From assembly GCA_958439775.1 (NCBI GenBank), contig CAUBWQ010000001.1, positions 1 through 20,643 on the forward strand: 20,643 nt of DNA. The letters are read 5' to 3'. The notes below the pieces were generated by a model, which was given only the letters and a program-made list of their open reading frames with translations, had not been told where the DNA came from and ran no database searches. Each line of letters opens with the position of its first letter. Within the stretch, counting starts at the first letter, position 1. Below, piece after piece: positions 7,429 through 10,794 of the stretch. Origin of the DNA: an uncultured Collinsella sp. (GTDB lineage Bacteria > Actinomycetota > Coriobacteriia > Coriobacteriales > Coriobacteriaceae). Made by a program: the position numbers and the translations under genes.

Positions 7429-7621
7429 TGAATCCCGCGTTCTGACGTTTGCTCAAACTGCGACTCTTTGCTTTTACATGCTCAATCGATTTATCAATCC
7501 AAACACTGAGATGTTTATACCGTTCGCCGAGAAGATAAAAAACCGCAGTTCACGCCTTGATAAACGTAGGTAAAGTGTTTAGCAGTTTAACGCCCATGTG
7601 CAAGCGAAAGGAATCAGGCAG

Positions 7622-8326
7622 ATGGCAATCAAGGTGTTCGCTGACGGTGCAAACCTCGAAGGCATGCTCGACATGTACGAGAACGGCAACGTTCAGGGTT
7701 TCACGACCAACCCGTCCCTTATGAAGAAGGGCGGCGTGACGGATTACCGCGCGTTTGCCAAGGAGGTTCTGGCCCACATCGCCGATGTGTCCGTGTCGTT
7801 CGAGGTCTTTGCCGACGACGTCGAGACCATGGAGGTCGAGGCGCGCGAGATCGCTACCTGGGCCGAGAACGTCTACGTCAAGATTCCGTGCGTGACCACC
7901 AAGGGCGAGTCCACCGCCGAGCTGGTGCGCAAGCTTTCGGCCGACGGCATCAAGGTCAACGTCACCACCATCTTTACGCCTAAGCAGGTTGACGAGATGG
8001 TCGAGGCCGTTGACACCGAGACGCCGTCCATCATCTCGCTCTTTGCCGGCCGCATCGCCGACACCGGCGTCGACCCCATTCCGTTTATGACGGAGTCGGT
8101 CAAGAAGGCCGCCGCCAAGCCCAACTGTGAGGTCCTGTGGGCGTCCACGCGCGAGCTTATCAACATTTACCAGGCAGAAGCCTGCGGTTGCCAGATCATT
8201 ACGGTGCCCAACAGCATCCTGGCCAAGCGCAAGAACATCGGTCGCGACCCGTACGAGGTCTCGCTCGACACCGTGCGCGGCTTTGCCAAGGATATCGCCT
8301 CGCTCGGCTTTCATATTCTGCCGTAA
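7622..8326 (+). CDS. Small transaldolase (TalC/FSA-type fold)
   Basis: A 234-residue cytosolic class I aldolase of the short transaldolase group, interconverting sugar phosphates in the non-oxidative pentose phosphate pathway. The Schiff-base lysine is Lys87 in VYVKIPC, and the substrate-binding asparagine motif is FTTNPSLM (Asn30). By alignment from memory with E. coli FSA, FSA Tyr131 corresponds to Phe141 here, and FSA Ala129 to Ser139 (segment IISLFAGRIAD). That resembles the SPF-GRI segment of true transaldolases such as TalB, where Phe178 favours transaldolase over fructose-6-phosphate aldolase activity. I therefore favour transaldolase, without proof. The ATG at 7622 has AAAGGA at 7607-7612. 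The reading frame opens earlier (7598), but the added residues have no ribosome binding site. A strong terminator follows at 8408-8456. Confidence 0.82.
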   Translation: MAIKVFADGANLEGMLDMYENGNVQGFTTNPSLMKKGGVTDYRAFAKEVLAHIADVSVSFEVFADDVETMEVEAREIATWAENVYVKIPCVTTKGESTAELVRKLSADGIKVNVTTIFTPKQVDEMVEAVDTETPSIISLFAGRIADTGVDPIPFMTESVKKAAAKPNCEVLWASTRELINIYQAEACGCQIITVPNSILAKRKNIGRDPYEVSLDTVRGFAKDIASLGFHILP

Positions 8327-8542
8327 GCAAGGGTACCCCCTGTAGCGACGTGCAAAATCGCGAGTATTCAGCAAGGTAAAGGTCTTTATCAGTTAACCGA
8401 AGCATGGAACGGCCCCCGTTTTGGCTCTGACGACGCTAAAACGGGGGCCGTTTTTTGCTTTTTCGTCTCTGAGGGGCATCCGGAACGGTGGAATTTGCAG
8501 AATACTCGCGATTTTGCACGTCGCTGCAGGGGGTACCTTTGC
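8327..8542. repeat. Large nested inverted repeat (46-bp arms) filling a convergent intergenic gap
   Basis: Arm 1 (8327-8372) starts directly after the transaldolase stop codon. Arm 2 (8497-8542) ends 9 bases before the tex stop. The arms match at 43 of 46 positions as reverse complements; the shared core includes GGTACCCCCTG, GCGACGTGCAAAATCGCG and AGTATTC. Of the three differences, two give G.U or U.G pairs in a plus-strand RNA, so 45 of 46 positions can pair there. A complete hairpin terminator sits in the 124-base middle. Possible readings are a miniature inverted-repeat element, a strong RNA barrier between convergent genes, or a dispersed chromosomal palindrome. No protein is encoded. 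Confidence 0.85.
8408..8456 (+). terminator. Rho-independent terminator after the transaldolase gene
   Basis: A perfect 15-bp stem pairs 8408-8422 (AACGGCCCCCGTTTT) with 8438-8452, with a 15-base loop, followed by a T-tract (8451-8456) and more T-rich sequence. It is oriented for the plus strand. On the minus strand the stem also forms but the following bases are not T-rich, so it should act mainly on transcripts from the transaldolase gene. Confidence 0.9.
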
Positions 8543-8551
8543 TTTGGCGGT

Positions 8552-10699
8552 TTACTTGCCCTGCACCATGGTGAGGGAGATCTTCTTGCGGTCGCGATCG
8601 ACCTTTTCAATCCACACCTTGACCGTGTCACCGACGCGCACCACGTCGCTCGGGTGCTTGACAAAGCGGTTGGCCAGTTTGGAGATGTGCACGAGGCCGT
8701 CCTGGTGCACGCCCACGTCGACGAACGCGCCAAAGTCGACGACGTTGCGCACCGTGCCCTTGAGTTCCATGCCGGGCTCCAGGTCATCGATGGAAAGTGC
8801 TGAGCGGCTAAAGATCACCTCGGGCGCGTCGTCGCGCGGGTCGCGACCGGGCTTCTTGAGCTCGTTGACAATGTCGATGAGCGTCAGGGTACCGCAGTCC
8901 AGGTCGCTTGCCAGCGCCGAGATGCTGCCCAGACGGCGCTCGATGTCGGGCACGCCGCCGCGGCTGAGCTCGCTTGCCGCAACGCCGGCGCGCTCCAGGA
9001 CGGCCGTTGCCACCTCGTAGCTCTCGGGGTGGACGCTTGTCGCGTCGAGCGGGTTCTTGCCGCCGCTGATGCGCAAAAAGCCCGCGGCGTTCAGATATGC
9101 CTTGGGTCCCAGCTTGGGGACTTTCTTGAGCTGGCGGCGATCGGTAAAGGCTCCGTTTTCCTCGCGGTAGGCCACGATATTCTTAGCTACGCTCGGTGTG
9201 ATGCCCGATACGTATCCCAGCAGGCTTGCGCTCGCGGTGTTGACGTCGACGCCCACGCGGTTGACGACGTCCTCCACCACATGGCCCAACGTGCGCGAAA
9301 GCTCGGCCTGGTCAAGGTCGTGCTGGTACTGGCCAACGCCGATGGACTGGGGCGGGATCTTGACGAGCTCTGCCAGCGGGTCTTGCAGGCGGCGGCCCAG
9401 GCTCATGGCGCCACGCACGGTGACGTCCAAGTCGGGATACTCCTGGCTGGCGAGTTCGGAAGCCGAGTACACCGACGCGCCGGCTTCGTTAACGATGGTG
9501 TAGCGAAGGCTGGGCGCCTGCTCGGCAATGAACTCCGAAACGACTTCCTCGGTCTCGCGGCTGGCGGTGCCGTTGCCGATGACGATGGTGTTGACGCTGT
9601 CCTTCTTGACGAGGCGGGCGAGCTCGCGCTTGGTGCCGGCGACGTCGTGGCGCGGCTTGGTGGGGTAGACCACGCCGTGGTCGAGCAGCTTGCCGGTCTC
9701 GTCCATGACGGCGACCTTGCAGCCGGTGCGGTAGCCCGGATCGAGCGCGAGCACGCGGGCGCCACGGACGGGGCGTGCCGAGAGCAGGCCCTCGAGATTC
9801 TTGGCAAAGACGTTGATAGCCTCGGTCTGGGCGCGAACGGTGAGTTTGGCGCGGGCCTCGCGCTCCAGCGAGGGGGCCATCAGGCGCTTGTAGCCGTCGG
9901 CGATGGCGGCGTCAAAGACGGGCGCGAAAGCGCCCTGGCGACGGGGCCAACGGCTGCCGAGGCGTGCCGTGGCAGCGGCGCCGTCGACGTTCACGCGCAC
10001 GCGGAGCTTGCCCTCGCGCTCACCGCGGTCGATAGCCAGCACACGGTGGTTGGGGATGCGGCGCAGCGGCTCATCATAGCTGTAGTACGGCTCGTAGGGA
10101 GTCTTCTCGGCGGGGTCGGTCGCCTCGACGACGATGTCGGCGGTGTTTTGCGTAAAGGCGCGCAGGTCGGCGACGTTCTCGGGGTCTTCGGCCACCGTCT
10201 CGGCCGCGATGTCCGCCGCGCCGGCGAGCGCCTTCTCGGGCGTGTCGAAGCCGGCTTCCTCGTTGACGTAGGCCGCGGCGGCGTCGAGCGCGCTGCCCTT
10301 GGCGGATGCCTGCATGATGATCATGTTGGCAAGCGGCTCCAGGCCTGCCTCGCGGGCCTTCTGCGCGCGGGTCATGCGCTTTTTGCGGTAGGGCTTGTAG
10401 AGGTCCTCGACACGCTGGAGCTGCGTGGCCTCGCGAATCTGCTGTTCGAGCTCGGGCGTAAGTTTGCCCTGGGCGTCGATGAGCAGAATGACGTCCTCTT
10501 TGCGCTGTTCAAGATTGCGCAGGTAGGACAGGCGCTCGTCGAGTGCGCGCAGGGCGACGTCGTCCATTCCGCCTGTGGCTTCCTTGCGGTAGCGCGAGAT
10601 AAAGGGGATGGTGTTGCCCTCGTCGATGAGCTTGACGGCCGCCTCGATGTTGGCGGCCTTAAGGTTGAGCTCGTGGGCGAGCTGGGCGATAAGATCCAT
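8552..10699 (-). CDS. tex: Tex-family S1 RNA-binding protein
   Basis: A 715-residue cytoplasmic nucleic-acid-binding protein of the Tex (YhgF) family, linked in other bacteria to transcription and RNA handling. In order: the Tex N-terminal helical region with DEGNTIPFISRYRKEATGGM (about 28-47); a YqgF/RNase H-like domain near residues 315-440 (ARVLALDPGYRTGCKVAVMD); tandem helix-hairpin-helix motifs (NTASASLLGYVSGIT and KKVPKLGPKAYLNAAGFLRI); and a C-terminal S1 domain (about 637-712) with LKGTVRNVVDFGAFVDVGV and DGLVHISKL. The length is within the usual range for Tex. The start at 10699 (MDLIAQLAHELN) is chosen because AAGGAG lies just upstream; an in-frame start further up at 10786 would add a tail foreign to the family. 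It is convergent with the transaldolase gene. Confidence 0.9.
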   Translation of the reverse strand: MDLIAQLAHELNLKAANIEAAVKLIDEGNTIPFISRYRKEATGGMDDVALRALDERLSYLRNLEQRKEDVILLIDAQGKLTPELEQQIREATQLQRVEDLYKPYRKKRMTRAQKAREAGLEPLANMIIMQASAKGSALDAAAAYVNEEAGFDTPEKALAGAADIAAETVAEDPENVADLRAFTQNTADIVVEATDPAEKTPYEPYYSYDEPLRRIPNHRVLAIDRGEREGKLRVRVNVDGAAATARLGSRWPRRQGAFAPVFDAAIADGYKRLMAPSLEREARAKLTVRAQTEAINVFAKNLEGLLSARPVRGARVLALDPGYRTGCKVAVMDETGKLLDHGVVYPTKPRHDVAGTKRELARLVKKDSVNTIVIGNGTASRETEEVVSEFIAEQAPSLRYTIVNEAGASVYSASELASQEYPDLDVTVRGAMSLGRRLQDPLAELVKIPPQSIGVGQYQHDLDQAELSRTLGHVVEDVVNRVGVDVNTASASLLGYVSGITPSVAKNIVAYREENGAFTDRRQLKKVPKLGPKAYLNAAGFLRISGGKNPLDATSVHPESYEVATAVLERAGVAASELSRGGVPDIERRLGSISALASDLDCGTLTLIDIVNELKKPGRDPRDDAPEVIFSRSALSIDDLEPGMELKGTVRNVVDFGAFVDVGVHQDGLVHISKLANRFVKHPSDVVRVGDTVKVWIEKVDRDRKKISLTMVQGK

Positions 10700-10794
10700 G
10701 GGACTCCTTGCGTTTAAGGTGCGTTTGCAGCACAGGGCTACCAAGGATACCACCCGTCCCAAAAGACTGTTTTGGAGCCGCACCACGAAAACGA

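Follow-up and report, generated by a model that had tools for sequence, protein, structure and literature searches.

A family of facing inverted arms at twelve loci of Collinsella, one of them between tal and tex

A long inverted repeat in the gap between the transaldolase gene (tal) and tex of an uncultured Collinsella sp. belongs to a family of small elements. Each consists of two arms, which are roughly 42-bp sites in a fixed register and face each other across an interior specific to the locus. The reading that we favor, with a probability of about 0.58, is that this is an old MITE-like family that no longer jumps, whose arms are maintained as putative DNA-binding sites, and whose tal-tex copy has the tal terminator inside it. 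On this reading, the ancestor of the Collinsella aerofaciens group would have acquired the elements as MITE-like mobile DNA of a non-autonomous kind, and they would have been immobile since, with the arms retained through binding by a candidate DNA-binding protein. This protein may be transposase-like or host-adopted, and it would probably bridge the arm pair; the tal-tex interior would supply the terminator for tal. The oddity of a single gap becomes a family that can be counted over 12 loci and is defined by an explicit motif, with a second module at a rigid distance. Should the arms be bound, leftover transposon-like ends would serve the host in a common human gut genus.

The element between tal and tex

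The gap under study lies in a stretch of 20,643 nt, referred to here as the window. On one side is tal (7598..8326, plus strand; PF00923, E 2.9e-44), whose 3' end is at the element, and on the other is the convergent tex gene (8552..10786, minus strand; PF16921, PF09371 and PF00575). An earlier note on this DNA had described arms at 8327-8372 and 8497-8542 with 43 of 46 positions complementary, a distance of 9 bases between arm 2 and the tex stop, and a perfect 15-bp stem in the middle. Recomputation gave the same values throughout, with tex ending at 8552 (minus strand) and the 15 perfect pairs of the stem at 8408-8422 and 8438-8452. Of the three arm mismatches, two (G-T and T-G) become G.U wobbles in plus-strand RNA, and the third is A-A. 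The full repeat is slightly longer (8325-8374 and 8495-8544, 47 of 50 positions complementary), and its first two bases fall in the transaldolase stop codon (gene end 8326).

Arm 1, on the tal side (8325..8374, plus strand), is matched at 8326-8373 by the arm model R1 described below (51 bits, E 2.2e-15). Its motif parts are GGT at 8332-8334, GTGCA at 8350-8354, GAGTATTC at 8362-8369 and AGCA at 8370-8373. Arm 2, on the tex side (8495..8544, minus strand), is matched by R1 at 8496-8543 on the minus strand (48.5 bits, E 1.4e-14). The interior between them (8375..8494, no strand) is specific to the tal-tex locus and shows no resemblance above shuffle level to the interiors of the other loci.

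When the same 1 kb was base-shuffled 30 times, the best 46-nt inverted repeat with arms at most 250 bp apart reached 29/46, and the runner-up 1-kb tile of the window reached 30/46. The predicted fold of 8325-8544 has an energy of -149.2 kcal/mol, compared with -69.2 +/- 4.15 in 200 shuffles. A known structured RNA family was rejected as the identity of the element, there being 0 Rfam matches at gathering score in the window; the 11 other loci gave only two microRNA-family matches, both far under that score.

The inner hairpin (8408..8452, plus strand) has a 15-bp stem and a loop of 15 nt (8423-8437) and looks like an intrinsic terminator for transaldolase. Downstream of the stem, the plus strand reads TTTTGCTTTTTC, with T-runs, and the minus strand reads CCATGCTTCGG, without a T-run. 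The combination of a GC-rich stem and a following T-run is thus found on the plus strand only, and the terminator would therefore serve the tal side; a role as the tex terminator has no support, as the minus strand lacks a T-run after the stem. A simple terminator scan reported 2 sites in 8200-8700, compared with 0.7 +/- 0.9 in shuffles, and one of these is a small hairpin at 8438-8454; the scan takes loops of 3-8 only, so the 15-bp stem itself goes unscored. Hairpins like the inner one are visible by eye in the tal-tex copies examined. As a side observation, the relatives L321, L323, L324, L327, L330, L334, L339 and L341 have a short piece resembling the 3' end of tal, together with a second hairpin, between tal and the element.

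Arms and loci in other genomes

A 17-mer from the arm has matches in 12 Collinsella stretches of 39, some of them at a second type of locus with the same outline; the other 27 of the 39 come from other organisms and were set aside, taken as chance. L030, a contig of C. aerofaciens, shares 91-96% identity with the window and has a similar arm pair. We aligned 57 arms, which go together gap-free, and built from them the sequence-only model R1. Among the matches listed, R1 finds arms in 26 of 43 Collinsella genomes, with strong scores in 22 and weak ones in 4. Order-wide, again among the matches listed, those at E <=1e-4 come from 22 of 247 genomes and from 1 of 99 genera, which is Collinsella.

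The R1 matches amount to 306 arms in 22 Collinsella genomes, which form 151 inverted pairs (302 arms) and 4 singles. Two of the four unpaired strong arms, on contigs C15 and C23 of G010, look like one L-type element split across two contigs; another, on C35 of G028, lies near the contig end, and the last is on C9 of G064. Nine weak unpaired matches with E values of 0.006-0.25 were set aside before the count (two each in G013 and G021, one each in G030, G032, G035, G063 and G064), and these could include decayed single arms. Nearly all pairs (148/151) span 105-292 bp, falling into tight length groups of 211-221, 227-245, 255-259 and 272-292 bp, with two elements of 105 and 107 bp. The remaining three pairs, of 1,751-3,991 bp, carry inserted IS elements.

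Together with the window copy, the pairs make 152 elements, which clustering by flanking DNA assigns to 12 orthologous loci, each with 8-22 genomes. Copies elsewhere with varied middles, which the earlier note had named as the mark of a mobile or dispersed element, do therefore exist, at 12 loci in Collinsella. The neighboring genes are ordinary ones and encode asparaginase, a LacI-type regulator, glucuronate isomerase, phosphofructokinase, PEP carboxylase, lactate racemase, an aminotransferase, an M42 peptidase, an iron alcohol dehydrogenase, a helicase and an amidohydrolase. Genes are convergent around loci A (tal-tex) and K and run in the same direction around loci D, E, H and M. Loci D and E have long plus-strand ORFs antisense to the helicase and iron alcohol dehydrogenase genes, and are not divergent. 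By hand arithmetic, the elements found in three of the genomes all fall no farther than 722, 799 and 926 kb, respectively, from dnaA, a clustering that is not convincing for 12 loci.

At locus F, the element is part of the reading frame of a transporter ATPase (547 residues in G008), where it separates the two ABC domains in 22 of 22 carrier genomes. The linker measures 270-279 nt in intact carriers and 144-147 nt in two with an internal deletion; G030 and G059 have lost the interior in frame at this locus and kept both arms. The same linker has 78-264 nt in 14 arm-less Collinsella genomes, with 96 nt in the closest. Because the arm-less genomes vary so widely, their linkers are weak, if suggestive, evidence for insertion and do not amount to a clean empty site.

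The window element has no match among 50,697 phage or 72,556 plasmid records, and on this count a phage or plasmid origin was rejected; the D-locus stretch likewise has no match among the phage records. In viral contigs, a strict arm pattern was found 0 times. A looser pattern was found in 13 stretches, with one exact match each and a weak neighbor (3-4 mismatches) in two, and these matches were taken as chance. The pattern of the module described below, used alone, occurs in at least 119 viral stretches and is too weak a pattern there. Titles and the opening parts of abstracts in the open-access literature contain no description of these elements that we could find.

Conservation of the arm motif and of a second module

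The arm motif is GGT-N14-YGTGCA-A/T-rich-GAGTWTTC-W-GCA. Its CGTGCA and GGAGTATTC blocks have an identity of 0.89-1.00 across orthologues. Within loci, identity is 0.74-1.00 for the WGCA block, which is sometimes no better conserved than the interior, 0.66-0.94 for the interiors and 0.62-0.96 for the flanks, which are often coding. Over 15 core positions in 304 arms, 1.4% of letters are off consensus, a value to be read in the light of elements having been found via their arms, so that decayed copies may escape and core conservation be inflated. The scarcity of one-armed copies among the strong matches is the best internal control for this bias. Position 17 is A in 255 arms and T in 49, and never C or G, and the first four spacer positions are nearly all A or T. 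Such an A/T-only spacer suggests that a protein would read the minor groove here and the major groove in the blocks on either side. No binding protein for the arms was identified, which weighs against our reading.

Codons found in the locus F arms include GGA and AAA (22 of 22 genomes), ATA and CTC (21), AGA (16) and GTA (14). In the rest of the available locus F reading frame, GGA stands at 9.5%, GTA at 5.1% and ATA at 3.8%, and AGA is unseen. The presence of these rare codons in the arms points to a constraint on the DNA letters, and shared inheritance may account for part of the codon conservation.

At loci D, E, G, H, I, K and L, 79 of the 83 elements also have a direct-repeat module, TGYATA-N15-TGYATA, on the outer side of one arm. 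In 75 of these 79, the second TGYATA box begins 54 bp before GTGCA, and the intervening DNA differs between loci. Exact module matches near elements number 74 with a gap of 15 and 2 with a gap of 14. At any gap from 8 to 30, the module is absent from 356 kb of farther flanks, and with a gap of 15 it is absent from another 411 kb of Collinsella DNA; the total of ~767 kb consists partly of orthologous stretches. Loci A (tal-tex), B, C, F and M have no module on either side. The element at locus A is ~10 bp from tex, those at M and B are 10 and 35 bp after a stop, that at F is inside a gene, and that at C is 11 bp from an ORF without a Pfam match. That the module might be a promoter, which would fit this split, with module-less loci inside a gene or just past a stop codon, is only an idea. 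In L165 and L172 (loci L and K), a terminator-like hairpin overlaps the TGYATA module, which keeps its 21-bp period.

Pairing between the arms

One of the two explanations in the earlier note was a selected double-stranded RNA barrier at 3' ends, and more broadly the arms could be an RNA device that pairs as such a barrier or as an RNase III site. The very stable fold of the window element agrees with this, as does the complementarity of the core blocks between arms, and the five module-less loci, given their position inside a gene or just past a stop codon, would be transcribed. The comparison of arms, however, argues against it. Mean identity within elements and between loci is 0.446 vs 0.426 for the outer arm, 0.938 vs 0.935 for the core and 0.38 vs 0.45 for the spacer; outer columns -24, -23 and -8 match better within elements than between loci. 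At several loci, the spacer of one arm has an A-run and that of the other a T-run, and these are unpaired in the inverted register. Over the 15 core positions, a change is confined to one arm at 55 element-positions, which come down to 19 distinct combinations of locus, position and arm, and is present in both arms at 4. These 4 are G to A changes at position 15, in 4 elements from 2 loci; pairing or conversion would account for them, and they count against our best reading.

Since arms match as well between loci as within elements and core changes are mostly confined to one arm, arm-arm pairing does not, on average, appear to be the conserved property. The covariation of arms that the earlier note had expected of an RNA role is accordingly absent except at position 15. 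Interior folding gives a similar picture: with loci C, B and E left out and 40 column shuffles each, 7 of 9 loci have no consensus folding beyond shuffles, and the two that do, A and M, both hold terminator-like hairpins. For this test and for the comparison of interiors, the G013 elements at D and L were excluded from the profiles. One copy lies in coding sequence, and the genes on the two sides of D, E, H and M share one orientation and therefore have no converging 3' ends to protect. The A/T-only sites also sit poorly with pairing. An RNA barrier was thus rejected as the main reading, and we regard an RNA device of any kind as improbable.

The near-perfect arms of the window are an outlier in the family. 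They match at 39 of 41 positions, the second highest of 152 elements, where the median is 26 and the between-locus mean is 27.3. At the tal-tex locus, the tal-side arm in G013 and G030 has much the same letters as the tex-side arm in G059 and the window, which suggests that sequence has been copied between the two arms. Arm-arm exchange, rather than a special RNA role, would most simply lie behind the unusually perfect stem, and a template switch in the hairpin may have been the mechanism of the copying. The case illustrates how a strain can gain a near-perfect long palindrome without selection at the RNA level.

Origin of the elements and alternative readings

Loci D and G have related interiors (E 3e-7 vs a best shuffle of 0.06), and G013 has a K-type element at locus L and a G-like element near D. 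The D-G relation and the K-type element at L speak for past movement or exchange. Similarity between the G and K interiors (E 0.018) is barely under the best shuffle of 0.06, and that between D and I (E 0.013) appeared in one comparison and was not repeated in another; an interior shared between copies is clear only for D-G and the two G013 copies. Even genomes with almost the same tex sequence can differ in whether they have an element. In the element-free alleles of L, E and H, the module side is missing as well, and the element-free alleles of L, M, E, H and K either differ over a wider stretch than the element or show no repeat, with no clean target-site duplication at any of those compared. 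The IS elements inside the three long pairs have ends unlike the arms, and the 151 pairs include no further long pair and no visible autonomous relative with the same ends. Judging from these sequence comparisons, we take the elements for an old mobile family of the non-autonomous kind, whose copies recombination has since spread in some cases and removed in others. The other explanation in the earlier note, a miniature inverted-repeat element with a terminator, thus holds in kind, given paired copies elsewhere with different middles, but the copies stand fixed at 12 orthologous loci, and the comparisons brought up neither clean flanking duplications nor an autonomous relative.

The ends of Tc1/mariner elements and the TnsB ends of Tn7, which two-part DNA-binding domains bind, are bipartite sites with an A/T-rich spacer, face inward and have extra direct repeats. 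The Collinsella arms resemble them in these traits, but no transposase belonging to the arms was seen, and the module is placed beyond the arm and on a single side. Bacterial MITEs such as Correia, RUP and ERIC, reviewed in PMC10969869, resemble the Collinsella elements in being small, gene-free and dispersed, with inverted repeats at their ends and, in one case here, a terminator inside. Terminal inverted repeats are present in all 151 pairs, and 148 of the 151 are small and without a transposase gene; several copies sharing an interior, as expected of MITEs, are not the rule. Unlike those MITEs, the Collinsella elements have interiors mostly unshared between loci, no locus confined to a single genome, arms under apparent site-specific constraint, a direct-repeat module at a fixed distance and no demonstrated target duplication. 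The Rickettsia palindromic elements (RPE; PMC10969869) parallel locus F in having in-frame copies within genes, whereas the Collinsella elements lie in a gene at only 1 of 12 loci, have a low copy number and conserve a bipartite motif in two arms instead of a 150-bp palindrome. REP palindromes (PMC3733652) are likewise short conserved intergenic units, which here stand in inverted pairs. In contrast to REP, the Collinsella units are ~42 bp long, number 4 to 22 per carrier genome, are nearly always paired and occupy 12 fixed loci, and neither a GTAG nor a CGTC tag is conserved in the 57-arm alignment.

Were the elements functionless inverted-repeat relics of a dead MITE family, their arms would be alike through having started as identical terminal repeats. 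Inverted repeats, small size and dispersed copies would all be expected, as would the related D and G interiors, the K-type element at L in G013 and the patchy presence among close species. Against this, the core blocks of the arms are more conserved than the interiors at the same fixed loci, few strong matches are unpaired, and arms survive internal deletion. Rare codons are kept at locus F, and the 54-bp spacing of the module is fixed over unrelated DNA. We consider it rather unlikely that the arms are mere relics. A further tentative reading, which we would call possible without leaning toward it, is a clade-specific chromosomal site system, in which a DNA-binding protein of the C. aerofaciens group would act on about a dozen fixed composite sites, folding or marking the DNA, the mobile-element ends having been co-opted for a chromosomal role. 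Each composite site would be a pair of facing arms, often with the direct-repeat module at exactly 54 bp. Facing inverted sites at such a distance are also the usual architecture of invertible switches, in which the arms would be recombinase sites and the interior would flip. Yet the interior is inverted in 0 of the 147 elements tested (five were skipped, three with IS and two with an internal deletion), and a switch, rejected on this evidence, is very hard to credit.

Insertions and rearrangements near the elements

Counting within 1,400 bp of the 152 elements, a Mutator-family IS (PF00872) lies inside an element or at most 52 bp from one at 8 of 8 insertion sites (L170, L253, L307, L266, L270, L271, L286 and L152). 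Another 390 kb, from other stretches, contained three further copies, including one at the G locus of G025, where the element is absent, and intergenic bias may explain much of the proximity. At the tal-tex locus, foreign DNA starts within the tex-side arm in three stretches (L331, L335 and L337); the insert measures ~17 kb in G011, and those of G019 and G020 measure ~1.5 kb. At the phosphofructokinase locus (L316/L317 and L370), G064 has two K-type elements flanking a stretch whose counterpart in G059 is without an element and encodes an HTH_3 protein; by match orientation, this stretch is inverted between the two genomes.
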